Source: Nitrospirota bacterium
Lineage (GTDB): Bacteria > Nitrospirota > Thermodesulfovibrionia > UBA6902
Assembly (NCBI GenBank): GCA_016208905.1
Contig: JACQXG010000002.1
Location: 1 to 40,744, forward strand
DNA length: 40,744 nt
Reading direction: 5' to 3'
The position numbers and the translations under genes are program-made. Under the pieces are notes generated by a model, which worked only from the letters and a program-made list of their open reading frames with translations, searched no databases and was not told the DNA's origin. This document shows positions 20,793-38,900 of the stretch, piece after piece (positions within the stretch are counted from its first letter, which is position 1; every line of letters begins with the position of its first letter).

Positions 20793-21541
20793 TCACCGTT
20801 CTTTCTTGTAGAGATCAATCAATATTCCTTCGAGTAAACCATAATTGCTTACGGCAATCTCCTTGAAGCCGAAGGACTCCATAAGTTTTAAAAGTATAAG
20901 TGTTCCAGGCACTATTATGTCAAGCCTTGCAAGTTCAAAGGGGATAAAACGCGCCCTGTCATAAGATGATAATACGGACATGGCAGAAAAAATATTTTTC
21001 ACTTTATCTTTAGTCAATTTGAACTTATGAATTTTATCGTGTTCAAATTTCCTGAGGTCCTGCGCCATGGCCGCCAATGCCGTAATAGTCCCGGCGGCGT
21101 ACTCCCTCCGCCTATGTCAACCATAAGCGCGCTTTTCGGCGGGGGCATATCAATCAGCATACCTGAAGCGGTCAACTTTGCCTCCTGCCTGCCGCTGATG
21201 ACTTTTATATCCAGTCCCGCCGCATCTCTTGCCTTGTCCAGAAAATCCCTGCTGTTCTTTGCTTCCCTCAAAGCGCTCGTAGCCACAGCCGATATTTTAT
21301 CAACTCTGTGCCGGGAGATAACTCTGCTGATTTGTTTCAGTGCCTTGATGCTTCTCATTACAGACTGCTTGTTGATGGAGCCATCATGCGCGATCCCATC
21401 ACCCAGTCTCGTAATTATCCTCTTTGAGCAGAGTTCTTTAAATGAGAAATTCCCTTGAGTTGAATCAGGATGGATCTCTGCAATAAGGAGCCTGAAGGTA
21501 TTCGTTCCTATATCGATAGCAGCCAGTTTCTGGTTTTTCAC
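20793..21541 (-). pseudogene. ppx: Ppx/GppA phosphatase, broken by an internal deletion and frameshift
   Basis: The N-terminal part (GTG 21541, overlapping the mqnD stop as GTGA) is a good Ppx/GppA actin-fold half: AAIDIGTNTFRLL through ALMVDIGGGST. Directly after GGGST the frame is wrong and ends at 21014. The C-terminal part is intact in another frame: AGTITALAAMAQDL, then KIHKFKLTKDKV, and KEIAVSNYGLLEGILIDL to the stop at 20793. In the family about 65 residues lie between GGGSTEL and the GxGTIT motif, so about 195 nt have been lost at 21091-21104, with a frame change. Without the second half of domain II, hydrolysis of polyphosphate or ppGpp is not expected. Assembly error is the main alternative. 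Confidence 0.8.
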
Positions 21542-22443
21542 TGTGGAATAAATATCGGCTGGTTTGATTTTGGGATGATGCCGGCTTTTTCCGCTCTTGA
21601 AATAAGCTCTGTCACAGCTTTTTCCCCTTCTTCTCCTACATCAAGTGAGAAGTTATTTACGTAAAGATTAATATGCTGATTAATGATATCGTCGGACAAT
21701 TCCTGAGAATGCATTTTTATATAGGACATTGGTTCTATCCTGTTGCTGAACGCATATTCCACACTTTGTTTTAATAATTTCTCTATCTGTTTGATCGAAC
21801 TTTCTCCAAGAGTTCGTTTGGCGATAATTCCCCCCAGTGGAATGGGAAGCCCTGTTTCTTTTTCCCACCAGCGTCCGAGATCTATAACCTGTTTTAATCC
21901 ATATGAAGGATATGTAAATCTGCTTTCGTGTATTATTAATCCTGCGTCAACTTCTTCATTTACCACTGCGTCCATGATTTTGTGGAATGGCATCTCGATA
22001 ACGACAGGGGTCAGGGATTGGGGATTAGGGGTCGGTGTAGGGGCGGGGTAATCCCGCCCGTTGCCATATGCTCTTATAAATGCAGGATCAAGCAACTGTA
22101 AAAGCAAATATGCCGTAGTCAGTTTGCCGGGGACCGCTATCTTCTTTCCGCGAAGTTCTTCCATTGCATATTTTTTTTTTGCTACCACAAGCGGACCGCA
22201 TCCCCTGCCAAGCGCCCCTCCTGACCTTAGCAGACAATAATTCTCACGGAGACGCCCGTATGCCGCATAAGAAATTTTAGAGATATCAAGCTCCGCTTTC
22301 AGCGCCTTACGGTTTAGTGTTTCAACATCCAGCAGGACTTCATTGAATGAAAGACCGCCCGTATCGATCTTTCCGTGAATCATGGCATAGAAGATAAAAG
22401 TATCGTTAGGGCAGGGGGAGTAGCCGAGGGAAATACTCTTCAT
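21538..22443 (-). CDS. mqnD: 1,4-dihydroxy-6-naphthoate synthase (futalosine menaquinone pathway)
   Basis: The protein has 301 aa and a periplasmic-binding-protein-like fold, but no signal peptide. The start LGYSPCPNDTFIFYAMIHG is diagnostic of MqnD, with LLDVETLNRKAL, DISKISYAAYG, and SGGALGRGCGPLVVAKK also matching. MqnD converts cyclic dehypoxanthine futalosine to 1,4-dihydroxy-6-naphthoate. Residues 126-147 (from AYGNGRDY through PTPTPNPQSLTP) are encoded by a palindrome plus a heptamer array and look like an in-frame insertion between two conserved segments. The ATG directly follows the upstream NifU-like stop (TAGATG) and the gene overlaps ppx by 4 nt. Confidence 0.88.
   Translation of the reverse strand: MKSISLGYSPCPNDTFIFYAMIHGKIDTGGLSFNEVLLDVETLNRKALKAELDISKISYAAYGRLRENYCLLRSGGALGRGCGPLVVAKKKYAMEELRGKKIAVPGKLTTAYLLLQLLDPAFIRAYGNGRDYPAPTPTPNPQSLTPVVIEMPFHKIMDAVVNEEVDAGLIIHESRFTYPSYGLKQVIDLGRWWEKETGLPIPLGGIIAKRTLGESSIKQIEKLLKQSVEYAFSNRIEPMSYIKMHSQELSDDIINQHINLYVNNFSLDVGEEGEKAVTELISRAEKAGIIPKSNQPIFIPQ
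22007..22060. repeat. Heptamer array plus GC palindrome (copy 2) inside mqnD
   Basis: Seven-base units GGGGTCA, GGGATTG, GGGATTA, GGGGTCG (22007-22034) run into the palindrome GTAGGGGCGGGGT-aa-TCCCGCCCG (22037-22060). The whole block reads in frame through mqnD. Confidence 0.85.
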
Positions 22444-22743
22444 CTATTTTCCCTGTTTGTTTTTATAATCCTCTATGGCCTTGTGAAGGGCGTCAGCGCC
22501 CAGATTAGAGCAGTGCATTTTTTGCGGCGGCAGTCCATCAAGGGCCTCTGCAAGGGAAGCTTTTGTTATCTTCATAGCCTCATCAAGCGTCATGCCTTTG
22601 GCCAATTCAGTTACCATGCTTGAAACTGCTATTGCAGAGGCGCAGCCGAAGGTCTGAAATTTCAGATCAGTGATTACGTTATCTTTGACCTTAATGAATA
22701 TTTTCATTGCATCGCCGCATACGGGGTTCCCTTCCTCTCCTAT
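22444..22743 (-). pseudogene. nifU: NifU/IscU scaffold, 5'-truncated
   Basis: The body of an IscU-type scaffold is intact: FQTFGCASAIAVSSMVTELA, LPPQKMHCSNLGADALHKAI and a final EDY. Upstream of the only ATG (22707) the frame continues as IGEEGNPVCGDA, which is the conserved first ligand region (Cys and Asp of VCGD), but it meets a TGA at 22746-22744 with no start codon between. About 25 N-terminal residues are therefore missing, and the reading frame joins straight onto the end of nifS. If translation begins at 22707 (88 codons with the stop) the product lacks the first cluster-ligand Cys and the Asp. It is called a pseudogene because of this; a functional short form cannot be excluded. Confidence 0.65.
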
Positions 22744-23843
22744 TCATTGAAATAATTTATGTCTGCCTCAGTTGTTCCCTCTCCAAGAGTAAATACAACC
22801 GAGCCCTGTGCGAGATGCACCGGGACCCCTATGGAAATCAGCACCGGTGAAGACTTCAGCGCCTTTGAACTGCATGCAGAGCCGCTTGCAGAGTATATGC
22901 CTTTGAAGGCGAGCATTAAAAGCATTGCTTCACCCTCGATATATTCAACTACAAAACTTGCATGGCCCGGCAGCCTCTGATGAGGATGTCCGGTGAGAAT
23001 CACCTTGTCTATCTTAAGGGCGCTGCTGATTATTTTGTCTCTTAGCGGCGTTACATGATCTATACGCTTCTGCAAATCTCTTTTTGTAATCTCTGCGGCT
23101 TTGCCCATGCCCACAATAGCGGGAACATTTTCAGTCCCGGCCCTGCGGCCTCCTTCCTGAATCCCGCCATAAATCAGGGGGACTATCCGGGTGCCTTCCC
23201 TTACGTACAGGGCAGCGGCGCCTTTCGGACCGTAAAACTGATGGGCCGCAAATGTCATAAGGTCAACATTAAGCGCCTGGACATCTACAGGGATGTTTCC
23301 AACCGACGCAACAGCATCAGTGTGAAAAAAAATACCTTTGGCTTTAGCTATCTTGCCTATGTCCGCAATTGACTGGATTGTGCCGATTTCAGGACTTGCA
23401 TGAATTACGGATATTAGGATGGTTTCGTCTGTTACAGCCTTTTCAACAGCGGCAGGATCAACAAGGCCGTGATTATCGACGGGTAAATATGTGACGGCAA
23501 AGCCCTGTTTTTCAAGAAAGCGCGCTGAGTTCAGAATTGAGTGGTGCTCGACTTTGGAAACTATAATATGTTTCCCCTTGTTCTGAAGAGCATATCCGAT
23601 GCCTTTAAGGGCGAAGTTGTTGGACTCAGCGCCGCTTGCGGTGAAAATGATTTCTTTTGCCTTGGCATTTATAAGATCAGCAGTGCTTTCGCGCGCGTTT
23701 TCAATCGCCTCTCTTGCCTTAACGCCCGGCTCGTAAAGGCTCAACGGGTTGCCGTAGAGTTCTTTAAAATATGGCAGCATTGCATCCAGGACTTCGGGAT
23801 GAAGAGGGTTTGTTGCAACATGGTCCAGATATATTTTTTTCAT
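22740..23843 (-). CDS. NifS/IscS-like protein lacking the PLP lysine; C-terminus truncated
   Basis: The 367-aa protein has the fold and most motifs of a group I cysteine desulfurase: SGAESNNFALKGIG, VEHHSIL with His100, FHTDAVASVG with Asp176, RRAGTENV, and the active-site loop ASGSACSS with Cys324. The Schiff-base lysine position (normally AHK or SHK before xYGPKG) is Gln202 (AAHQFYGPKG; codon CAG at 23240-23238). HASPEIGTIQ replaces the usual NNEIGTIQ. It may belong to a clade that lacks PLP activity; A. fulgidus IscS is a reported example, recalled from literature. The C-terminus stops at TTEADINYFNE, about 20-25 residues short, at the nifU scar. It overlaps the TusA-like stop (ATGA), with AAGGGG upstream. 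Confidence 0.85.
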   Translation of the reverse strand: MKKIYLDHVATNPLHPEVLDAMLPYFKELYGNPLSLYEPGVKAREAIENARESTADLINAKAKEIIFTASGAESNNFALKGIGYALQNKGKHIIVSKVEHHSILNSARFLEKQGFAVTYLPVDNHGLVDPAAVEKAVTDETILISVIHASPEIGTIQSIADIGKIAKAKGIFFHTDAVASVGNIPVDVQALNVDLMTFAAHQFYGPKGAAALYVREGTRIVPLIYGGIQEGGRRAGTENVPAIVGMGKAAEITKRDLQKRIDHVTPLRDKIISSALKIDKVILTGHPHQRLPGHASFVVEYIEGEAMLLMLAFKGIYSASGSACSSKALKSSPVLISIGVPVHLAQGSVVFTLGEGTTEADINYFNE

Positions 23844-24139
23844 CGCGACCCCTTTACTTTTTTTATAAAAAATTTGTAATGGTCAATATCTTCATATATT
23901 CCTAAAAATTCATTGCCGGTTTTATTGCACCATTCAGGAATATCTTCCAGTGCCCCGTCATAGTCTGTCAGTATTGAAAGAATTTGACCTGCCCTGATTT
24001 CTTTTACTTTATCGTCAAGGGTAAGAAGATGCATCGGACACATCATATATATGACATCTGTTTCCGAGTCAGCCTTCATAGGCTCATTTAAAAATTTAAT
24101 TCCTGTGTTTTCCAACTGAGGGGCCTCCGCCAGTGACAT
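23840..24139 (-). CDS. TusA/SirA-like sulfur-carrier family protein
   Basis: The protein has 99 aa. The segment MMCPMHLLTLDDKVKEIRAG with ILSILTDYDGALEDIPEWCN resembles the TusA fold, in which a CPxP-type motif at the start of helix 1 carries sulfur; here the motif is CPMH. The C-terminal half, TGNEFLGIYEDIDHYKFFIKK, completes the small two-layer fold. It lies 6 nt after the Rrf2 gene and overlaps the nifS-like gene (ATGA), so it belongs to the same operon and probably handles sulfur for the same purpose. With a NifS lacking the PLP lysine next to it, this protein could be the real sulfur donor; that is inference. Confidence 0.7.
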   Translation of the reverse strand: MSLAEAPQLENTGIKFLNEPMKADSETDVIYMMCPMHLLTLDDKVKEIRAGQILSILTDYDGALEDIPEWCNKTGNEFLGIYEDIDHYKFFIKKVKGSR

Positions 24140-24145
24140 AATGTG

Positions 24146-24571
24146 TTACCTCAATAATTTTGCTTCTTCCTTTAAAAGATCATTCAAGTTTATGGTATCA
24201 AGAAAATCTTCTATCTTTTCCCCAAGAGATTTCCATAATAATCTCGTGACACAGCCTTCAACCCGTTTACAGCCCTTGGCTGAAGGATCAAGGCATTGAG
24301 CGATAGCAACAGGACCCTCGAGTGAATTAAGGATCAAGCCGACACTGATCTCTTCCGGCTTTTTATTTATTACATAACCGCCGCCGGGTCCTTTCTGGCT
24401 TGTGATCAAATCCGACTTCCGCAGTTTATTCAGAAGCTGCTCAAGATAGGATATTGAAACACCCTGCCTGGCGGCAATTTCCTTAATGGTGAGAGGGCCT
24501 TTTTCATAGTTTTTAGCGAGCTCAAACATGGCCCTTACCCCGTACTGGCCTTTTGTAGATAATCTCAGCAT
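24146..24571 (-). CDS. iscR: Rrf2-family transcription regulator (IscR-like)
   Basis: The 141-aa winged-helix protein starts MLRLSTKGQYGVRAMFELAK, the Rrf2 signature, followed by the recognition helix region ISYLEQLLNKLRKSDLI and the wing GPGGGYVI. Three cysteines (C93, C101, C107 in QCLDPSAKGCKRVEGC) match the positions that bind a 2Fe-2S cluster in IscR-type members. It heads the TusA-NifS-NifU operon and probably controls it according to iron-sulfur status. A perfect palindrome GACTAT-a-ATAGTC lies between its -35 box and start codon, fitting autoregulation. No Shine-Dalgarno site is seen. The symbol follows family and context, not proven orthology. Confidence 0.88.
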   Translation of the reverse strand: MLRLSTKGQYGVRAMFELAKNYEKGPLTIKEIAARQGVSISYLEQLLNKLRKSDLITSQKGPGGGYVINKKPEEISVGLILNSLEGPVAIAQCLDPSAKGCKRVEGCVTRLLWKSLGEKIEDFLDTINLNDLLKEEAKLLR

Positions 24572-28742: not shown

Positions 28743-28810
28743 TATCTTTCTCCTTGAAGGGATTTTAACAATCGATATTGGTGAAAGTAAAGTCTTGATA
28801 GCGGGGATGA

Positions 28811-28839
28811 GAAATATGAACAACGGGCCAGTCCGTCAA
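28811..28839 (-). promoter_or_regulatory. Possible greA promoter
   Basis: On the minus strand TTGACG (28839-28834), a 17-nt spacer and a weak TATTTC (28816-28811) lie 69 nt upstream of the greA ATG. The -10 is a poor match. Confidence 0.35.
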
Positions 28840-28854
28840 CGTACGACAATTAAT

Positions 28855-28881
28855 TAAAGTATTCATTTTATTTGCCGATAC
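28855..28881 (+). promoter_or_regulatory. Sigma-28 (FliA)-type promoter for the chemotaxis operon
   Basis: TAAAGTAT (28855-28862), 11 nt, then GCCGATAC (28874-28881) matches the flagellar sigma-28 consensus TAAAGTTT-N11-GCCGATAA at 14 of 16 positions. It points at the CheW-PilZ gene and leaves a leader of about 100 nt. Confidence 0.85.
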
Positions 28882-28986
28882 GATAAATACCTGTACGGAA
28901 AATTTGTAAGGAAATCAGCTAAGTAAAAGAAGTAATAAACAGACAAGGTATACAGAAGTTATGTTACCAGGAAAAGGAGTGCGCAT

Positions 28987-29739
28987 ATTAAAGCTATAGT
29001 CTTTAAAATCGGGACTGAACATTTCAGCCTGGACATCGGCTATCTGAAGGAAATAAAGCCCTTTTCGGAATTGAAAAATACCTATGTCCCGAATTCCCCT
29101 GCATGGCTGACAGGGCTTGTCAATCTCAGGGGCAGTCTTGTTCCTGTAATAGATTTAGGGATTGCCTTTGATGTCAAGGACAGGATTGCAAAGGAACATA
29201 ACGTCATTATCCTTTCCATCAAAAACAGAATAATCGGGATACTTGTCGACGCCATAGGCTCAATCATGGATATAAATGACAAGGAGCTGGAAAAGCCCCC
29301 ATCAACACTTTCAAAGGAAAATACGAAATACATTGCAGGGGTAAAGCGGCTTGAAAACGGGCTGCTGATCCATCTGATCCCGGAAAATCTGACTGGCTTT
29401 GGAATAAGACCCCGGACTGATGTTGAAAAAAGAAGGTTTACAAGAAAAGAGACAGACATATCCGCGTATTATTGCACGGTTGGCGATCGTGATCCCGATG
29501 CTGAATGGCAGCCGTGCCGTTTACTGGACATCTCGCTCGGCGGAATGAAGATGATGATGAATGAGCATCTGAAAATGGGCACCGGGATGACAGTCAACAT
29601 CCAGGACGGAAAAGAACTGGATGGGATGGTTGTCTGGTCAAGGAGTCTTGATGACCAGGCAGGCTTTTACACCGGCGTCAAGTTCAATGAGTCGCCGGAC
29701 GTGATAAATGAAAAGCTTCATAAGATAATGGAGATATAG
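28987..29739 (+). CDS. CheW-PilZ fusion protein (apparent ATT start)
   Basis: The 250-aa protein has a CheW domain first (KAIVFKIGTEHFSLDIGYLK, then VPNSPAWLTGLVNLRGSLVPVIDL), which links receptors to CheA. From about residue 148 a PilZ domain follows, with both c-di-GMP-binding motifs intact: RRFTR (RxxxR, about 149-153) and DISLGG (D/NxSxxG, about 181-186). The first beta strand of CheW is encoded upstream of the first conventional start (TTG 29071). Between the upstream in-frame TAA and that TTG there is no ATG, GTG or TTG, but an ATT at 28987 has AAGGAG (28974-28979) at ideal 7-nt spacing. The gene is first in the chemotaxis operon, 4 nt before cheA. Confidence 0.82.
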   Translation: MKAIVFKIGTEHFSLDIGYLKEIKPFSELKNTYVPNSPAWLTGLVNLRGSLVPVIDLGIAFDVKDRIAKEHNVIILSIKNRIIGILVDAIGSIMDINDKELEKPPSTLSKENTKYIAGVKRLENGLLIHLIPENLTGFGIRPRTDVEKRRFTRKETDISAYYCTVGDRDPDAEWQPCRLLDISLGGMKMMMNEHLKMGTGMTVNIQDGKELDGMVVWSRSLDDQAGFYTGVKFNESPDVINEKLHKIMEI

Positions 29740-29743
29740 AAAA

Positions 29744-32700
29744 ATGGGACCGGAAAATACTTCTGACGCAAAACAGACTGATGAGTTTTCAATGGATGCG
29801 ATGCCGGATGAAATTGTTGTTGAATTTCTGGCAGAGACAAAAGAGAGTCTTGATGGCATAGAGAGTGATTTTATAGCCCTTGAAGAAGACCCCGGCAATA
29901 CGAACCTTATAAACAATATCTTCCGTATTATTCATTCCATGAAAGGGGCTGCATCGTTTATCGGATTCAAGAACCTGGAAAACGTATCTCATAAGGCGGA
30001 AGACGTACTTAACAAACTCAGAAAAACCGAGCTGGTCCTTACTCCAGCCATAATGGACACACTCCTGAATGCCGTTGACATTCTGAAGCTGATCCTGAAA
30101 GACATAGAAGAAAACAGGAAAGATACTTCTGTAGACAGCGGCGAAATTGTCGGCAGGCTCCTTGCCGTTGCCGCCGGGAATACAGGCAATGAACAAAAAC
30201 CCCCGGCCACTGACCATGTCATCACGCCTGTGAGTGCAGTGGTGGAAGAACCTGTACAAACTGTCAATCAAGGCGGGAGTGAAGCAGCTACACCCGATCA
30301 TATAGAACTGCTGACTGAAATGATATCCCCCAACATCATAGATGATTTTCTTGAAGAAGCCCGCGAAGGGCTCCAGAAACTTGAAGTCTTCTTTGTCACT
30401 CTTGAGAAAGGGCCGGACAACAAGGAACTTTTGAATGACATATTCCGGGTAATTCATTCAATAAAAGGCTCCGCCGCATTGCTGTGCTTCAAAAACCTGG
30501 AAGGGCTTGCCCACAAGGCAGAAGACCTGCTCAATAAATTAAGAAAAGGTGAAATAGTCCTCACCCCCTCAATAATGGATGCTTTATTAAGGGCTGTGGA
30601 CGTTATAAAAACACTGCTTAAAAATATAGAAAAGAACAAAAAAGACTCCGCTGTAAGCACAGAGGAGATAAAAAAAATACTTGAAAGCCTGATTTGCGGC
30701 ACTGCACAAAGAACAGATGAAGCCTGCGGAGAAAAACATACCGAAACCGTTAGCGCGAAGAAAGACACCTCTGACCTCTCTATGGAAAAAGAGACGGTCC
30801 CGACCGCGGCTGCGGACAATGCATCTGTTGCGCAGTGCTCAACTTCGCCTTCCCCATCTCCGTCTGCTGAGATAAAATCAGGAAACGTGAAATCGCAGGT
30901 CCATACCGTAAAGGAAGATATCCGCTCTGTCAGAATAAGCGTGGAAAAGCTGGACTACCTTTTCAATCTTATAGGCGAGCTAGTACTCTCCCGCAACAGA
31001 AATATTCAACTTCACAGGATTCTTTCGAAGAGATACTCCGATGACGACACGGTGACCTTTGACCTGACAGAGGCTGGGAGCCACCTGAATCAATTGACCT
31101 CGGAAATCCAGTGGGCGGTCATGAAGACGCGTATGCTCCCGGTGTCATCAGTCTTCAGCAAATTCAAAAGGGTCGTGCGGGACATATCAAGAAACCTCGG
31201 TAAGGAATTAGAGCTTGAGACAACCGGAGAAGATACGGAGATAGACAAAAATATAATTGAAGGCATAGGCGACCCGCTGACGCATCTGATAAGGAATTCG
31301 GCAGACCACGGGATTGAGAGGCCCGACGAAAGGGTCAAAGCGGGCAAGCCGAGAAACGGCACTATTAAGCTGGACGCATACTATGAAGAGAATTCTGTTG
31401 TTATCAGCATAAAAGATGACGGCAAAGGCATTGATGTCGATGCTGTAAGGAGCAAATCCATAGAAAAAGGTCTCATTAAAGCAGAGGGCGCAGACAAGTT
31501 GTCCAAACAGGCGCTGCTGAACCTGATATTTGCCCCGGGGCTGTCAACGTCCCAAAATGTGACTGCTGTCTCAGGCAGGGGCGTAGGCATGGATGTAGTC
31601 AAAACCAATATCGAGAAATTGAGGGGGCAGATAATAGTCGACTCTGAAGTAGGCATAGGCACAGAAGTGAAAATGAAGATACCATTGACCCTGGCCATAC
31701 TCGACACCCTTATTATTAAGATCAGCGACCAGCGATATGCAGTGCCCCTGTCAAACGTGGTTGAGACCCACAGGATCAAATTCAGCCAGATTGAGACAGT
31801 ACGTGGAAGCATGATATTCAGGATGAGAAATGAGCTGCTGCCTTTAGTGCTCCTTTCGGATGTATTTAATCTTCCTTACAGGCATAACAATAATTCCGAA
31901 GTGACGATTGTGGTATTGAAACACGGCCTGCTTAGGATGGGGCTGGTCGTGGATAAAACTGCGGGACAGGAGGAGGTGGTCATTAAAACGCTGGATTGTC
32001 TTGACGGAATATCAAAGCCTGACGCCATATCCGGCGCAACAATCCTGGGATACGGGTCGATAACTTTCATTTTGGATGTGGATGCCTTAATGAAGATTGC
32101 AAAGGCGACGGAGAATCGCCTGGCCTCTGACGTTTCTATGGAGAAGAATGTTGAATTATGGGGTACGGACACGATCAATGTAGTTCTTGTCGATAACCTT
32201 GGCAAAGAGCAGTATGCGATACCGGCAAGAAACATCAGGGAAATAGAAATGATTCACAAAACAGACATAGAAGAGATAGGCGGCAGGCTCATGATAAAGT
32301 ACAGGGGAGTGATAACCCCCCTGACGACAATTGCGAGTTTTACTAATGTATCTGCTCAAAGGGAATTTGACAGATATTACATGGTAATACTGACCAACCT
32401 GTCCGGTCCCGGCAATAAAGAAGCGGGCCTGCTTGTAGGCCGTATGCTTGGTATAAAGAAGATGGAAGTATCTTCTATTAATACAGGCGGCAATGAATTC
32501 AAAGGGACCACCGGATCTGTAATATTTAACGGCAGAATAACTTTACTTTTAAATATCGGTGATGTGATAGGGTCTGCATTTTCAGCAACATCCAGCGCCC
32601 TGGCAGGTGAAATCTCAACCGCTTCCATGAATTCAAAGACCACCGGGCATATCCTTGTGGTCGATGATGTAAAGACCCATCGCTCAATCCTTGAGGATGT

Positions 32701-33004
32701 GGTCAAAGCCGCGGGTTACAGCTCCGTCAGCGCTGAGGACGGGCTTGATGCCCTGAACAAGCTGAACGACAGCATAAGCCTTATACTTACCGACCTCGAA
32801 ATGCCGAATATGAACGGATATGAATTTACAAGAGAGGCAAAGAAAAGATACCCTGGAATTCCGGTGCTTATGGTTACATCAATGTCGGGTGAAGAGGACA
32901 GGGCAAAAGGCCTTGAAGCAGGGGTGGACAAGTACCTTGTGAAATGGGACAAAGATGATGTGCTCAGGGAACTAAAAAGACATTTAAGAGAACCCGTTAT
33001 CTAA
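29744..33004 (+). CDS. cheA: Hybrid CheA histidine kinase with two HPt, two CheW modules and a receiver
   Basis: The 1086-aa cytoplasmic kinase has HPt1 with phospho-His64 (RIIHSMKGAA) and HPt2 with His238 (RVIHSIKGSA). The two are strongly alike (HKAEDxLNKLRK in both), so they arose by duplication. A low-complexity linker (about 315-385) leads to the dimerisation/P3 region (VEKLDYLFNLIGELVLSRNR), the ATPase domain (LIRNSADHGIE, DDGKGID, GRGVGMDVV), a CheW-like P5 (TLIIKISDQRYAVPLSNVVE), a second CheW-like module (NVVLVDNLGKEQYAIPARNI), and a C-terminal receiver with its Asp in LILTDLEMPNMNG. This layout is like FrzE/ChpA-type kinases. No cheY, cheB or cheR is in the window, so the fused receiver may be the output or a phosphate sink. 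Confidence 0.93.
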   Translation: MGPENTSDAKQTDEFSMDAMPDEIVVEFLAETKESLDGIESDFIALEEDPGNTNLINNIFRIIHSMKGAASFIGFKNLENVSHKAEDVLNKLRKTELVLTPAIMDTLLNAVDILKLILKDIEENRKDTSVDSGEIVGRLLAVAAGNTGNEQKPPATDHVITPVSAVVEEPVQTVNQGGSEAATPDHIELLTEMISPNIIDDFLEEAREGLQKLEVFFVTLEKGPDNKELLNDIFRVIHSIKGSAALLCFKNLEGLAHKAEDLLNKLRKGEIVLTPSIMDALLRAVDVIKTLLKNIEKNKKDSAVSTEEIKKILESLICGTAQRTDEACGEKHTETVSAKKDTSDLSMEKETVPTAAADNASVAQCSTSPSPSPSAEIKSGNVKSQVHTVKEDIRSVRISVEKLDYLFNLIGELVLSRNRNIQLHRILSKRYSDDDTVTFDLTEAGSHLNQLTSEIQWAVMKTRMLPVSSVFSKFKRVVRDISRNLGKELELETTGEDTEIDKNIIEGIGDPLTHLIRNSADHGIERPDERVKAGKPRNGTIKLDAYYEENSVVISIKDDGKGIDVDAVRSKSIEKGLIKAEGADKLSKQALLNLIFAPGLSTSQNVTAVSGRGVGMDVVKTNIEKLRGQIIVDSEVGIGTEVKMKIPLTLAILDTLIIKISDQRYAVPLSNVVETHRIKFSQIETVRGSMIFRMRNELLPLVLLSDVFNLPYRHNNNSEVTIVVLKHGLLRMGLVVDKTAGQEEVVIKTLDCLDGISKPDAISGATILGYGSITFILDVDALMKIAKATENRLASDVSMEKNVELWGTDTINVVLVDNLGKEQYAIPARNIREIEMIHKTDIEEIGGRLMIKYRGVITPLTTIASFTNVSAQREFDRYYMVILTNLSGPGNKEAGLLVGRMLGIKKMEVSSINTGGNEFKGTTGSVIFNGRITLLLNIGDVIGSAFSATSSALAGEISTASMNSKTTGHILVVDDVKTHRSILEDVVKAAGYSSVSAEDGLDALNKLNDSISLILTDLEMPNMNGYEFTREAKKRYPGIPVLMVTSMSGEEDRAKGLEAGVDKYLVKWDKDDVLRELKRHLREPVI

Positions 33005-33035
33005 ATAAAGCTGAAGCTCATAAGGAGAAGGACAT

Positions 33036-34205
33036 ATGAACATCAATATCAAGTCTAAACTTTTATTAATCTATTCGACGCTGTTTGCATTAGCGGCAGT
33101 AAATCTTGCGTTGGTGCATATACCTGCCTCAGGGTATGTGAAGGCTATCTCTGTTGCTATATTTGTCATAACAGGCATTGTCGCAATGGTGGGATGGAGA
33201 TTTGTAAAAAAGGACATAGTAGACCCGCTGCTGGCTATCAAAGACAGAATGCTGACAGCAGCAGAGGGGGACTTGAGGGTCAGGATTGAAGAAAATGGCG
33301 CTAATGAGATAGGACAACTGGCGAGAGGGACAAACAAGATGATGATGGACATGAATAACGCCATAAAGCAGATAGTCAATATAGTCGCTGAACTATCAGA
33401 GTTCGGCGCATCTCTATCTCAAAAAAGCGAACGGATAGTCAAAAGCGCGGAGGAGCAGACGGGCCAGGCTACCGCCGTGGCAACTGCGGCTGAAGAGATG
33501 ACCACAACGGTGACGGAGATAGCGCACTCGTCCGCCAATGCGAGCGAACTGTCAAAAAAGGCCCACGGTATTGTCGCTGAAAGCTCCGGGGTCATAAAGA
33601 ATACATCAAACATTATTCATGCCCAGGGGGAAAAGAGCAAAAAAATAGGAGAAGTGATCAAATTCATAAATGACATTGCCAACAAAACTGATCTGCTTGC
33701 CGTAAACGCGGCAATAGAAGCGGCCAATGCAGGGGAGCATGGCAAGGGGTTTGCGGTAGTGGCTGAGGAAGTAAGAAAGCTTGCCGAAAGGACAACAAAG
33801 GCAAGCGCGGAGATTACGTCTATAATAGAAGACATTCAACGCGGGTCGGAACAGGCTGTTGAGGCCATGGACCGTGTGAACAGTTCTTTTGGCGATATCA
33901 TGTCTAATGTTGATAATGTCAATGACCTGATTATGCAAATAGCCACGGCCGTTGAAGAACAGTCCGCAGCTGCGGATGAAATCGCTTCCAATATTCAACA
34001 GGTGGCACAAATAGCGCAGGACACTTATATCTCATCAGAAGATACAATCAAGGTTGTCTCGGAAATTACCGGCGCTGCCGGAAAACTGCGGGATAATCTG
34101 TCCCAGTTCAAAGTAAACAAGTACGATGGATTCATGATGAAACCGGAAGATTCGCCGTCAGACCTGATTGATAAACTTGTAACTACTCAGGTAGATAGTC
34201 TGTAG
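33036..34205 (+). CDS. Chemoreceptor without a sizeable periplasmic domain
   Basis: The 389-aa methyl-accepting protein has two membrane segments (about residues 9-27 and 36-53) separated by only about 8 residues, so no ligand domain is exposed outside. A HAMP domain (about 54-105) and an MA signalling domain follow, with the conserved tip region [20 protein letters not shown] and [20 protein letters not shown]. Input must come from the membrane, the cytoplasm or partner receptors. AAGGAG precedes the ATG. The last codons and the stop fall in a repeat array (34179 onward). It is 31 nt after cheA, in the same operon. Confidence 0.92.
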
Positions 34206-34302
34206 GTGTTTAGGTAGATAGGGGGGAATAACCATGGGAGATCACACAAAGCTCAGAGCAGCAGTCCTAACAGACTACAGTCTAAACAACCTGAGTAGTT
34301 AC
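34179..34302. repeat. Inverted repeat with heptamer-like arms between the two chemoreceptor genes
   Basis: GTAACTACTCAGGT (34179-34192) and its exact reverse complement ACCTGAGTAGTTAC (34289-34302) bound a segment whose arms carry seven-spaced TAG (for example TAGTCTG, TAGGTGT) and CTA (for example CTACAGT, CTAAACA) units. The array supplies the last codons and stop of the first receptor. It could form a hairpin that separates expression of the two receptors. Confidence 0.75.
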
Positions 34303-34341
34303 ATATTAATGCCAAAAAAATGATAACCGGGAGGATTGCAG

Positions 34342-35964
34342 ATGATTTCAAAATTTAATGTCATAAGGAACATAAAAATATCCAGCAAAGTCCTGTTTAT
34401 TGCAATAATGGGCCTGGTCATTATTCTCGCCTATGCAGCTGGGATTGCTTATATGGGAGTCGATGGGACGGGGACACTCGAGGAGATTTATAAACATAAA
34501 GTTATGCCCCTCGATGATTTGAGGCAGATACAGTTTGTATTCCGGGAGATTGAATACCGTATGGTCGGAGTAAAGGCTGAAATAGCCGACGCCATACCCT
34601 CAGGGAAACATTTGAAAGAATCGATAGGCACAATTGACGCTTTGTGGGGGGACGTTAACAATGCAATAACGGTTGATGGTCTCATGCGTAAAGAGATCGA
34701 GGGATTTGAAAAGGGATATAACGGCTTCAAGACAGTTGCCTCCAAGCTTGAAAAGGTATATCTCGGCAATGAACCGGAAAAGGTCCCTGCCCTGATTGAT
34801 GAATGGCTTGATTACAAGCCCCTTATCTTTCGTTCAATAGACAATATGGTTGATATGCAGAAAAAATCGGTGCAGGATTTCTATGTCAGGAACCAGCAGA
34901 TGTCTTCAAGGATAAACACGGCCCTGCTGATATTGACGATTATAATAGTAGCGCTGATATCTTCGATAACTTACCTGATTGTCAGCAGTATTAAATCTGC
35001 CATGTCATATGCGATTGACAGGATTGAGAAGTTGGCCGGAGGTGACTTCAGTATAAATGTAGAGTCCGGCAGCAGGGACGAGATGGGGACGCTTCTGCAT
35101 CATATTCACAAGATGAAAGGATCGTTCAGCAATATGATACTCAACATCATGTCATCGTCAAATAATGTAGTTTCCTCTATTGAAGTATTGAAAGCAAAAT
35201 CTGAAAAAACTTCTGAAGGGGCCAAAAGCCAGTCCGACCATGCAACCCAGATAGCAGCCGCTTCAGAGGAAATGACCACTACCGTCACGGAAATTGCAAG
35301 ATCCGCAGGCACGGCAAGTGAGCTGTCAAAACAGGCCCATGACATAGTCAAAGACAGCGCGGGGATTGTCAGTGAAACTGCTTCTATCGTAAACAGGCAG
35401 GGGGAGAAGAGCAAAAAAATCGGCGAGGTAATCAATTTCATCAATGATATTGCCAACAAGACCGATCTTCTGGCAGTAAACGCGGCAATTGAAGCTGCAA
35501 ATGCCGGCGAGCATGGCAAAGGATTTGCTGTGGTAGCGGAAGAGGTAAGAAAGCTTGCTGAGAGGACAACCAAGGCCAGCGCGGAGATAAATTCAATAAT
35601 CGCGGACATTCAGCAGGGTTCGGGGCAGGCCGTGGATTCAATGAATAAATTGAATAGGTCATTTGACCTGGTAATATCAGACGTGGTCAATGTTAACGAC
35701 TTGATTACTCAGATCGCCACTGCTGTCGAGGAGCAGTCATCAGCCTCCGAGGAAATAACCGACAATATAGGCGTGACGGCAAATATAGCCAAAGATATAG
35801 ATACAATGGCAGATGACGTAATGACCGAATTCAACAGGTTAACGGAAATAGTCGATACATTAAAGAAATCCACGTCGGGGTTCAGAATTAATAAAAGCAG
35901 TTCAGCCGCGGTCCAGCTGCAGGAAACAAATATAAGATATGATGGCCGCCCTGTTGAAGGTTGA
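34342..35964 (+). CDS. Chemoreceptor with a 4HB-type periplasmic sensor domain
   Basis: The protein has 540 aa from the ATG at 34342 (GGAGG at 7-nt spacing; the TTG at 34336 is too close). TM1 is about residues 14-34. A helical periplasmic region of about 150 residues follows ([20 protein letters not shown] through [20 protein letters not shown]), typical of four-helix-bundle MCP domains that sense small organic ligands. TM2 ([20 protein letters not shown]), HAMP and MA domains come next. The signalling tip is almost identical to that of the preceding receptor ([20 protein letters not shown]), so both should join the same CheA array. The ligand is unknown. It ends 22 nt from the convergent carB gene. 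Confidence 0.93.
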
Positions 35965-35986
35965 ACTGAGAACGAATCAAACTGAA

Positions 35987-38900
35987 TCAGGCTTGACGCC
36001 TGACCTTGTGATACTCCTGGAGCGATTTAATATTTAACTGCCTTTTAAGCATTACTTCAATCGCCTTAATTGCCGCCCTTGCGCCGGAGATGGTTGTCGT
36101 ATAAGTTACGTTGTACTGAAGGGCGCTTTCCCTGATTGAAAAGGAGTCCTTCTTTGCCTTTGCGCCGGCTGAAGTGTTGATGATAAAATCGATCTCCTTG
36201 TTCTTTATCAAATCCACGCAGTGCGGCCTTCCCTCGGTGACCTTATTGACGGTGCCTGCTTTTATGCCGAGTTGATTGAGATAAAACGCTGTGCCTCTCG
36301 TTGCGAGAATTTTAAAACCAAGCGATACAAGTTTTGAGGCGAGAGGGGTAATTGCCGGTTTGTCCCAGTCCTTCACGCTAATAAAAACAGTGCCCCTGAG
36401 AGGCATGGCATTCCTGGCTGCAGCCTGTGACTTTGCATATGCCCTGCCGAAATCTTCATCAATCCCCATTACCTCTCCGGTTGACTTCATCTCAGGGCCC
36501 AGGAGGGTGTCAACGCCCATGAAACGGTCAAAGGGGAATACAGCCTCCTTTACCGTGAAATGGGTAATTTCTTTTTCTGTTGTCAGTCCCAACTCTTCCA
36601 GTGTCTTTCCTACCATTACCTTGGCGGCCATCTTTGCGAGCGGGACCCCTATGGATTTGCTTACATACGGAATCGTACGCGATGCGCGGGGATTTACTTC
36701 CAGAATATATATTTCATTGTCTTTGACGGCAAACTGTATATTCATGAGACCGATGACGTTCAACTCTATTGCAAGGGCCTTTGTCTGCACTTTAATCTGT
36801 TCCACAATTTCAGATGATAAAGAGTAGGGGGGCAATGAACACGCTGAGTCCCCTGAGTGAATGCCGGCTTCTTCAATGTGTTCCATGATTCCACCAACAA
36901 TAACACTTTTGCCGTCCGAAATGGCGTCCACGTCGATTTCGATTGCGTCTTCAAGATAATCGTCTATAAGCACCGGATGTTCAGGCGACGCGGTGACAGC
37001 CCTTTTCATATAGTCCATGAGGCTTTTTTCATCATAAACAATTTCCATGGCCCGTCCGCCAAGCACATATGACGGTCTGACCATGACGGGGTAGCCTATC
37101 TTTCTGGCAATTTCAATTGCTTCGTCTACAGACACGGCCGTATCGCTTTCCGCCTGCCGGAGATCCAGCTTGTGAAGGATTCCCTTGAACCTCTTTCTGT
37201 CTTCGGCCATGTCGATTGAATCAGGGGAGGTGCCGAGGATCCTGACGCCTTCTCTTTCAAGCGGCACTGCGAGCTTGAGCGGGGTCTGTCCGCCGAATTG
37301 AACAATCACCCCAATAGGTTTTTCCGTATTGATAATATTTAGTGTATCTTCCAGTGTCAGCGGCTCGAAATATAACCTGTCCGCCGTGTCGTAATCGGTG
37401 CTGACGGTCTCGGGATTACAGTTTACCATTATCGTTTCATATCCGAGTTCCCTAAGCGCAAAGACCGCATGCACGCAGCAGTAGTCAAATTCAATGCCCT
37501 GTCCGATCCTGTTCGGACCGCTTCCGAGGATCACGACTTTTTTCCTGTCAGTGGGATTTGCTTCGCATTCGACTGCTGAAGTAAGAAGTGGGAAGTAAGA
37601 AGTGGGAAGTGAATGATCCAAAATATTATCATCTGTTTTTTCTTCTGACTTCTGACTTCTGACTTCTGACTTATAAAAAGGTTTTTCATACGTTGAATAC
37701 AAATACGGTGTATATGCCTTAAACTCGGCAGCGCAGGTGTCCACCATTTTATATACAGCCCTCAATCCGATTCGACTTCGCATGTCCCTGATAGACTTTT
37801 CGTCTGAATCAAGTAATTGTGCCAGTCTTTTATCTGAGAAACCGTATTCCTTTGCGTATCGGAGTAAGTCATGGTCTATGGGGTCGGCAGTTCCTTGACC
37901 CTTGACCCTTGACCCTTGACCCTTTATTTCCTCTTCCATATCAATTATCTGCTTAATGTTGTACAGGAACCATGGGTCAATCTTTGTAAGGGCATGAAGT
38001 TCCTCAATGCTTTCTCCCAGCCTTAAGGCATGCGCAATATACCAGATGCGGTCCCAGGACGGGACCTTTATCTTCTCTCGTATTTCAATGATACCGGCCT
38101 CAACAGGTTCAAAGCCATAACTGTCTATCTCCAGGCTCCGGACAACTTTCTGAAGAGACTCTTTGAAGGTCCTTGCTATGGACATGGCCTCGCCGACTGA
38201 TTTCATCTGAGTGGTCAGGGTAGGGTCGGCCTCGGGGAATTTTTCAAAGGCGAACCTCGGGTATTTTACGACGACGTAATCGATAGTGGGCTCAAATGAC
38301 GCGGGAGTTTCTTTTGTGATGTCATTTGGTATTTCATCAAGGGTCAGGCCCACGGCAAGCTTGGCCGCGATCTTGGCTATCGGGAAACCGGTTGCTTTGG
38401 ATGCAAGGGCAGAGCTCCTGGAGACCCTCGGGTTCATTTCTATTACAATCATTTCGCCGTTTTTGGGGTTAACTGCAAACTGGACATTTGACCCGCCTGT
38501 GTCAACCCCTATCTCCTGCATTATGGCAATGGACGCGTCACGCATTATCTGATATTCTTTATCGGTCAGTGTCTGTGCAGGAGCTACTGTAATTGAATCA
38601 CCGGTATGGACCCCCATCGGGTCGAAGTTCTCTATCGAACAGATGATGACAACATTGTCCTTGTTGTCACGCATCACCTCAAGCTCGTATTCTTTCCAGC
38701 CGAGCACGGATTCTTCCACAAGGACCTGATTGACCGGACTCAGCTTCAGGGCCTTTTTCAGGCTTTCACTATACTCATCCACATTGTACGCAATGCCGCC
38801 GCCTGTTCCTCCCATAGTGAAGGAAGGCCTCAGGATAAGAGGAAAACTCAGTTCGTCCGCGACCTTCATGCCTTCTTCCACGGAATTAACATGATGGCTC

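Follow-up and report, generated by a model that had tools for sequence, protein, structure and literature searches.

Cysteine desulfurase is treated as the entry point of sulfur into the ISC, NIF, and SUF systems. What, then, is the role of a desulfurase homologue that has lost its PLP lysine and yet is encoded in what looks like an Fe-S assembly operon? The question arises from a window of 40,744 nucleotides (the whole stretch of DNA that was analyzed, from a Nitrospirota bacterium) with a NifS-like ORF on its minus strand. In the original prediction, Gln replaced the PLP lysine, the NNEIG motif read SPEIG, and His100 and the catalytic Cys loop were retained. All of this was borne out: minus-strand positions 23240..23238 read CAG at codon 202, and SPEIG, His100, and Cys324 within GSACSS are all present. 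The relevant features are as follows.

22740..23843, minus strand: Lys-less NifS-like protein, 367 aa, without the last 31 aa present in close relatives
23628..23630, minus strand: Ala72, replacing Thr76
23544..23546, minus strand: His100 (E. coli His104), invariant
23391..23393, minus strand: Pro151, replacing Asn155 of NNEIG in the PLP pocket
23316..23318, minus strand: Asp176 (E. coli Asp180), invariant
23307..23309, minus strand: Ala179, replacing Gln183, which hydrogen-bonds to the PLP phenolate
23247..23249, minus strand: Ala199, replacing Ser203
23238..23240, minus strand: Gln202 at the PLP-lysine site (E. coli IscS Lys206), motif FAAHQFYGPKG
22872..22874, minus strand: Cys324 (E. coli Cys328), the persulfide cysteine, in the Cys loop
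22794..22796, minus strand: Val350, replacing Arg354, which binds the carboxylate of the substrate cysteine

Thus, the pocket has lost more than the original prediction described, as Thr76, Gln183, and Ser203 are each replaced by Ala, and Arg354 by Val. Thr76 and Ser203 are residues that we take to contact the PLP phosphate in IscS. The roles of His104, Asp180, Gln183, Lys206, Cys328, and Arg354 in E. coli IscS have been described (PMC9978102). In profile searches, the ORF was homologous to class V aminotransferases along its full length (PF00266, 3.4e-75). The best curated family was TIGR03402, at 461 bits against a cut-off of 531, and the score lay under all curated equivalog cut-offs. An AF2 model (pLDDT 90) had the IscS/NFS1 fold, with TM scores up to 0.95, and residues 323-327 of the Cys loop were of low pLDDT.

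We determined how widely this form of the protein occurs. We examined the window's genome together with 60 relatives; of these 61, 45 encode an orthologue of 64-100% identity, and the Lys is absent from all 45 (Gln in 44, Leu in one). The suggestion of a true subfamily therefore holds: every orthologue found, at 64-90% identity to the window NifS, lacks the Lys. A degenerate DNA motif search recovered HQFYGPKG from 142 of the 231 class genomes, with a single copy in each and no instance of the reversed control pattern among the matches listed. Scanning named genomes yielded at least 119 stretches. Most came from Nitrospirota, both Thermodesulfovibrionia and other groups (Candidatus Magnetobacterium casense among them); Schekmanbacteria, Aminicenantes, Syntrophaceae, and further taxa contributed the remainder. 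Altogether, we read 163 distinct Lys-less proteins from several phyla. Gln occupies the site in 149 of them, a share that is overstated because the scan itself was based on Gln; the others have N, E, R, P, L, I, M, T, or S.

The window's own copy is damaged, which the original prediction overlooked. Approximately 149 bp that are present in relatives are missing at 22743, where nifS and nifU overlap, and GAA is common to both ends. As a result, NifS ends 31 aa early, and NifU lacks its start and first Cys, part of the Cys37/Asp39 motif:

22444..22707, minus strand: NifU/IscU-type scaffold, N-terminally truncated here (NifU_N, 2.4e-31), with the equivalents of Cys63 and Cys106 kept
22708..22743, minus strand: nifU coding remnant IGEEGNPVCGDA, which contains the Cys37/Asp39 motif, precedes the ATG of the ORF in the same frame, and has no start codon; the junction is at 22743

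Similarly, ~207 bp present in relatives are missing from ppx/gppA at 21095-21098, splitting that gene into two frames. The window contains no N, and each gap may be a real deletion or an assembly error. These two lesions are what would favor reading the active-site substitutions as marks of a dying gene or of faulty assembly. We consider that explanation very improbable, since the same substitutions occur in relatives with intact, full-length genes, the HQFYGPKG motif is widespread in the class, and dN/dS for the window gene resembles that of its relatives (~0.05; pairwise 0.02-0.07 against close relatives). Lys-less nifS is under strong purifying selection. Lys-containing close relatives everywhere, the pattern that would mark simple decay, are not what we found. 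Thus, conservation and dN/dS led us to reject single-gene decay for the family, though it could apply to the window allele alone. As both genes are intact in the relatives that have the junction sequence, conclusions about the family do not depend on the window's lesion.

C-terminal residues of E. coli IscS are among those probed for partner binding (PMC2854127). We rejected a conserved C-terminal Cys of the relatives (which end in ACTAKK) as a second sulfur relay, since overlapping nifU start codons dictate these letters. Elsewhere, two relatives (G003 and G004) have continuous sequence at the place where the window carries a block of ~7.2 kb (28792-35998) that includes a CheA-like kinase (29744-33004). 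The menaquinone-biosynthesis gene at 21538-22443 contains a short proline-rich stretch, NGRDYPAPTPTPNPQSLTP, at 22001-22079, which falls in a gap of the DNA alignment with relatives.

To compare losses across the family, we aligned 81 Lys-less proteins with 27 canonical relatives, both sets thinned at 82% identity, and scored the 62 positions at which the canonical set is fixed to 95% or more. Median retention in the Lys-less set was 96%. Of the eight least-kept positions, five are PLP or substrate residues (hypergeometric p = 0.0017): Lys206 and Arg354 (0% each), Gln183 (5%), Asn155 (25%), and Thr76 (27%). The Schiff-base Lys and the carboxylate-binding Arg that cysteine desulfurases share were each found in 0 of 81 proteins, and Gln183 was absent from 77. 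Cys324, His100, and Asp176 were present in all 81, Thr239 (E. coli T243) was still conserved, and His201 was mostly so. Cys324 is the sole conserved Cys column of the family alignment, and with the low pLDDT of its loop, the flexible-loop persulfide Cys of desulfurases is in place. The original prediction that the system may not use cysteine is strengthened, as the Arg is gone from every Lys-less protein as well; it is from these residue losses that we infer it.

The order of the losses could be approached with a tree built without the active-site columns (a quick, unrooted tree). On it, loss of Arg354 required one change, loss of the Lys at least three, and the identity of the residue at the Lys site at least 13. 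Five of the 113 thinned rows keep the Lys but lack Arg354, and these rows, some of them with TusA, were placed inside the Arg-less clade, so that Arg354 loss seemingly preceded repeated losses of the Lys. Judged from this nesting, it seems that the substrate arginine went first and the Lys later and repeatedly. Because the Lys site is filled by many residues, with at least 13 changes, no catalytic role of Gln is implied, and the finding of L, I, E, N, R, M, P, T, or S in relatives rules out Gln as a new catalytic residue.

Could the protein still be a PLP or PMP enzyme? Conservation of His100, Asp176, Thr239, and mostly His201, all PLP contacts in IscS, leaves room for non-covalent binding of either cofactor, and the invariance of His100 and Asp176 would fit an enzyme that acts on another sulfur compound or carries out residual cysteine chemistry. 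Very slow partial chemistry has also been argued for E. coli IscS K206A (PMC9978102). However, desulfurase activity is lost in E. coli IscS variants at Asp180, Gln183, and Lys206 (PMC9978102), and in the Lys-less family, Lys, Arg354, and Gln183 have been lost together, usually with Asn155 and often with Thr76 or Ser203. We therefore regard this explanation as improbable.

The original prediction also placed a TusA-like protein, a NifU-like scaffold, and an Rrf2 regulator in the operon, and domain searches matched each of them. TusA and Rrf2 are encoded upstream of nifS and the scaffold downstream; the tusA stop overlaps the nifS start (ATGA).

23840..24139, minus strand: TusA-domain sulfur carrier, 99 aa, with Cys34 and Cys71 (PF01206, 2.2e-17)
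24146..24571, minus strand: Rrf2/IscR-like regulator, with Cys 93, 101, and 107 conserved in relatives (7.3e-40)

Examination of other loci revealed that the TusA and Rrf2 neighbors are kept in relatives. Of 144 distinct Lys-less loci with sufficient flanking sequence, 135 have TusA encoded on the same strand and no more than 3 kb away (none was nearby in the other nine), compared to 0 of 33 canonical loci and 7 of 11 loci that keep the Lys but lack the Arg. As TusA linkage behaves approximately as a trait of single origin, with Arg lost once on the tree, these numbers do not represent independent events. A phylogenetically replicated correlation between Lys loss and TusA could not be demonstrated, as independent pairs are too few, and since some Lys-keeping, Arg-less proteins also have TusA, the two are not strictly coupled. 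The position of tusA varies: in the window's class it precedes nifS, and in other lineages it follows nifU. In three class members (L059, L060, and L061), Asn replaces the Lys, and the nifSU operon has no TusA within the flank examined. In another lineage of the phylum (L217-L222, L230, L234, and L235), NifS and TusA occur with no NifU nearby, the Lys site is Gln, Pro, Thr, or Ser, and Gln occupies the His205 position.

The partners themselves are well conserved. The Cys34-Pro35 (CP) motif of TusA is invariant (143 of 143), with the window's TusA scoring 35 bits against the NCBIfam equivalog cut-off of 78. Cys37, Asp39, Cys63, and Cys106 are kept in 169 of 171 NifU proteins linked to Lys-less NifS, the exceptions being the window's own and one incomplete sequence. 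Relatives thus encode the U-type scaffold of an ISC/MIS-type operon, while in the window Cys37 and Asp39 fall outside the ORF. The three Cys of the Rrf2 regulator are in all 124 sequences checked, except one with a gap.

A Lys-less precedent named in the original prediction, A. fulgidus IscS, proved correct when its sequence was checked against PDB 4eb5. This protein (IscS2; PDB 4eb5, 4eb7, and 4hvk; D199K mutant, 4r5f) resembles Lys-less NifS in having no PLP Lys, Gln183 changed to Ala, a retained Cys, and an IscU partner, so that the A. fulgidus combination of a replaced Lys, a kept Cys, and an IscU/NifU-type partner recurs here. It differs from the window NifS in having Asp rather than Gln at the Lys site, in retaining Asn155 and Thr76, in carrying Asn at His205, and in coming from an archaeon. 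Work cited in PMC7585200 describes A. fulgidus IscS as lacking desulfurase activity and as contributing a Cys that ligates a [2Fe-2S] cluster on IscU. By analogy, Lys-less NifS might carry no sulfur at all: Cys324 would be a fourth ligand stabilizing the nascent cluster on NifU, and sulfur would come as free sulfide or pass directly from TusA to NifU. This ligand-provider role is the main rival to a sulfur relay. The pocket losses run in parallel (Gln183 to Ala, and Arg354 to Leu in A. fulgidus), A. fulgidus IscS is among the closest folds to the AF2 model (TM 0.93-0.95), and SMS systems show that Fe-S assembly is possible with sulfide alone (PMC12192291). However, a ligand role by itself leaves the tight TusA linkage unexplained, and A. 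fulgidus IscS does not group firmly with the Lys-less proteins, as it forms a long branch outside their 82-row clade with weak support. We thus consider a ligand provider unlikely, if less so than a PLP or PMP enzyme.

We also examined which other Fe-S systems these genomes encode. Of the 45 Lys-less genomes, 36 yielded no SufB/D. The window's genome is among those that show no SUFBD core, and so no SmsCB scaffold of an SMS system. In five genomes that are 92-100% complete and without SufB/D (G008, G009, G010, G049, and G055), the NifU of the operon is the sole NifU_N protein, making the NifS-NifU pair the only recognizable Fe-S scaffold system there.

The original prediction asked whether a second, Lys-containing desulfurase exists in the genome. 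One does, at a separate locus (L001/L065), in an rpoN-hpf-rapZ-nifS cluster with no NifU, and most Lys-less genomes likewise encode a canonical desulfurase. This co-occurrence could mean that Lys-less NifS is a non-catalytic partner that forms a hetero-oligomer with the Lys-containing NifS or directs it. Such an arrangement seems quite improbable to us, as the paralogues are only ~45% identical and unlinked. No canonical NifS or IscS was found in the draft genomes G010, G031, and G038, which also speaks against a partner role, but these absences fit incompleteness; with ~3 expected among 45 drafts, we rejected them as proof that a desulfurase is lacking. In G009, the only canonical NifS found is a complete domain that seems to be fused in-frame to a molybdopterin oxidoreductase (formate dehydrogenase/thiosulfate reductase-like). 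Such frames of ~1135-1147 aa occur at L265:3684-6911 (G009) and L069:850-4272 (G008) and also in G006 and G011; the fusion was read in L265 only. It could possibly provide built-in sulfuration of the Mo cofactor.

The best reading of these data, at roughly even confidence, is a PLP-independent relay in which sulfur would pass from TusA persulfide to Cys324 and then to NifU. With Lys and Arg lost, Cys kept, and TusA almost always adjacent, a sulfur relay is probable, and for a protein that is not loaded from cysteine, retains the Cys loop, and has its gene between those for TusA and NifU, TusA to NifS to NifU is the simplest path. The protein would retain the desulfurase fold, the flexible Cys loop, and the role of docking NifU, while PLP would no longer be held as a Schiff base and the carboxylate of cysteine would no longer be gripped. 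TusA might be charged by sulfide or other sulfane sulfur or by the canonical desulfurase elsewhere in the genome, which could in this way supply the persulfide through TusA. The IscR-like Rrf2 protein probably tunes expression to Fe-S status. Both the lack of PLP chemistry and the direction of sulfur flow are inferred from sequence.

Structures of the E. coli proteins bear on this relay. In the IscS-TusA complex (PDB 3lvj), the TusA Cys faces the Cys loop of IscS, with TusA Cys19 ~4 A from IscS Cys328 (PMC2854127). Since TusA and IscU are mutually exclusive on E. coli IscS (PMC2854127, PMC11302665), any relay must be sequential. In E. coli, IscS passes sulfur on to TusA for tRNA and Moco, the reverse of what we propose for Lys-less NifS.

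NifS/IscS desulfurases (TIGR03402, TIGR02006) share with Lys-less NifS the fold, the Cys loop, His100, Asp176, and a NifU/IscU partner, but have the Schiff-base Lys and substrate Arg that it lacks. MIS consists of a minimal desulfurase and scaffold, but is described with a cysteine desulfurase, while SMS uses sulfide, has no desulfurase, and is SufBC-type (PMC12192291); the operon described here is of the IscSU type and includes TusA and Rrf2. Methanosarcina acetivorans IscS1, an uncharacterized archaeal protein, is alike by description, being without the essential Lys and adjoining IscU, but the paper describing it (PMC7585200) makes no mention of TusA. A series of desulfurase structures altered at Thr76, Gln183, Lys206, Arg354, and other residues (PDB 9wep, 9wer, 9wew, 9wf8, 9wfb, 9wfe, and 9wfy, the last with Lys changed to Leu) are probably engineered variants. 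Lys-less IscS is already known in archaea, and our search of the open literature found no report of a class-wide, TusA-linked Lys-less NifS in bacteria.

Together, our results indicate that in an IscSU-type operon of bacteria that mostly show no SUF or SMS, the desulfurase is conservedly without its cofactor and substrate residues. The "cysteine desulfurase" annotation is probably wrong for these genes, which carry the Gln motif in more than half of the class genomes searched. Lys-less NifS may be a PLP-independent branch of the NifS/IscS family that is both ancient and functional; as part of the relay reading, this shares its even standing. Nearly always beside TusA, it probably relays sulfur rather than drawing on cysteine, to judge by its sequence. 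More tentatively, and at somewhat under even confidence, we propose that housekeeping Fe-S assembly in most of one class, and in relatives in other phyla, no longer takes its sulfur directly from cysteine: a NifS without PLP would pass sulfur from TusA to NifU, reversing the canonical flow, and in some genomes this would be the only scaffold system. For a class made up mostly of uncultured Nitrospirota bacteria, the finding makes two questions testable: what the function of Lys-less IscS proteins is, and whether a cluster scaffold can receive its sulfur from TusA.
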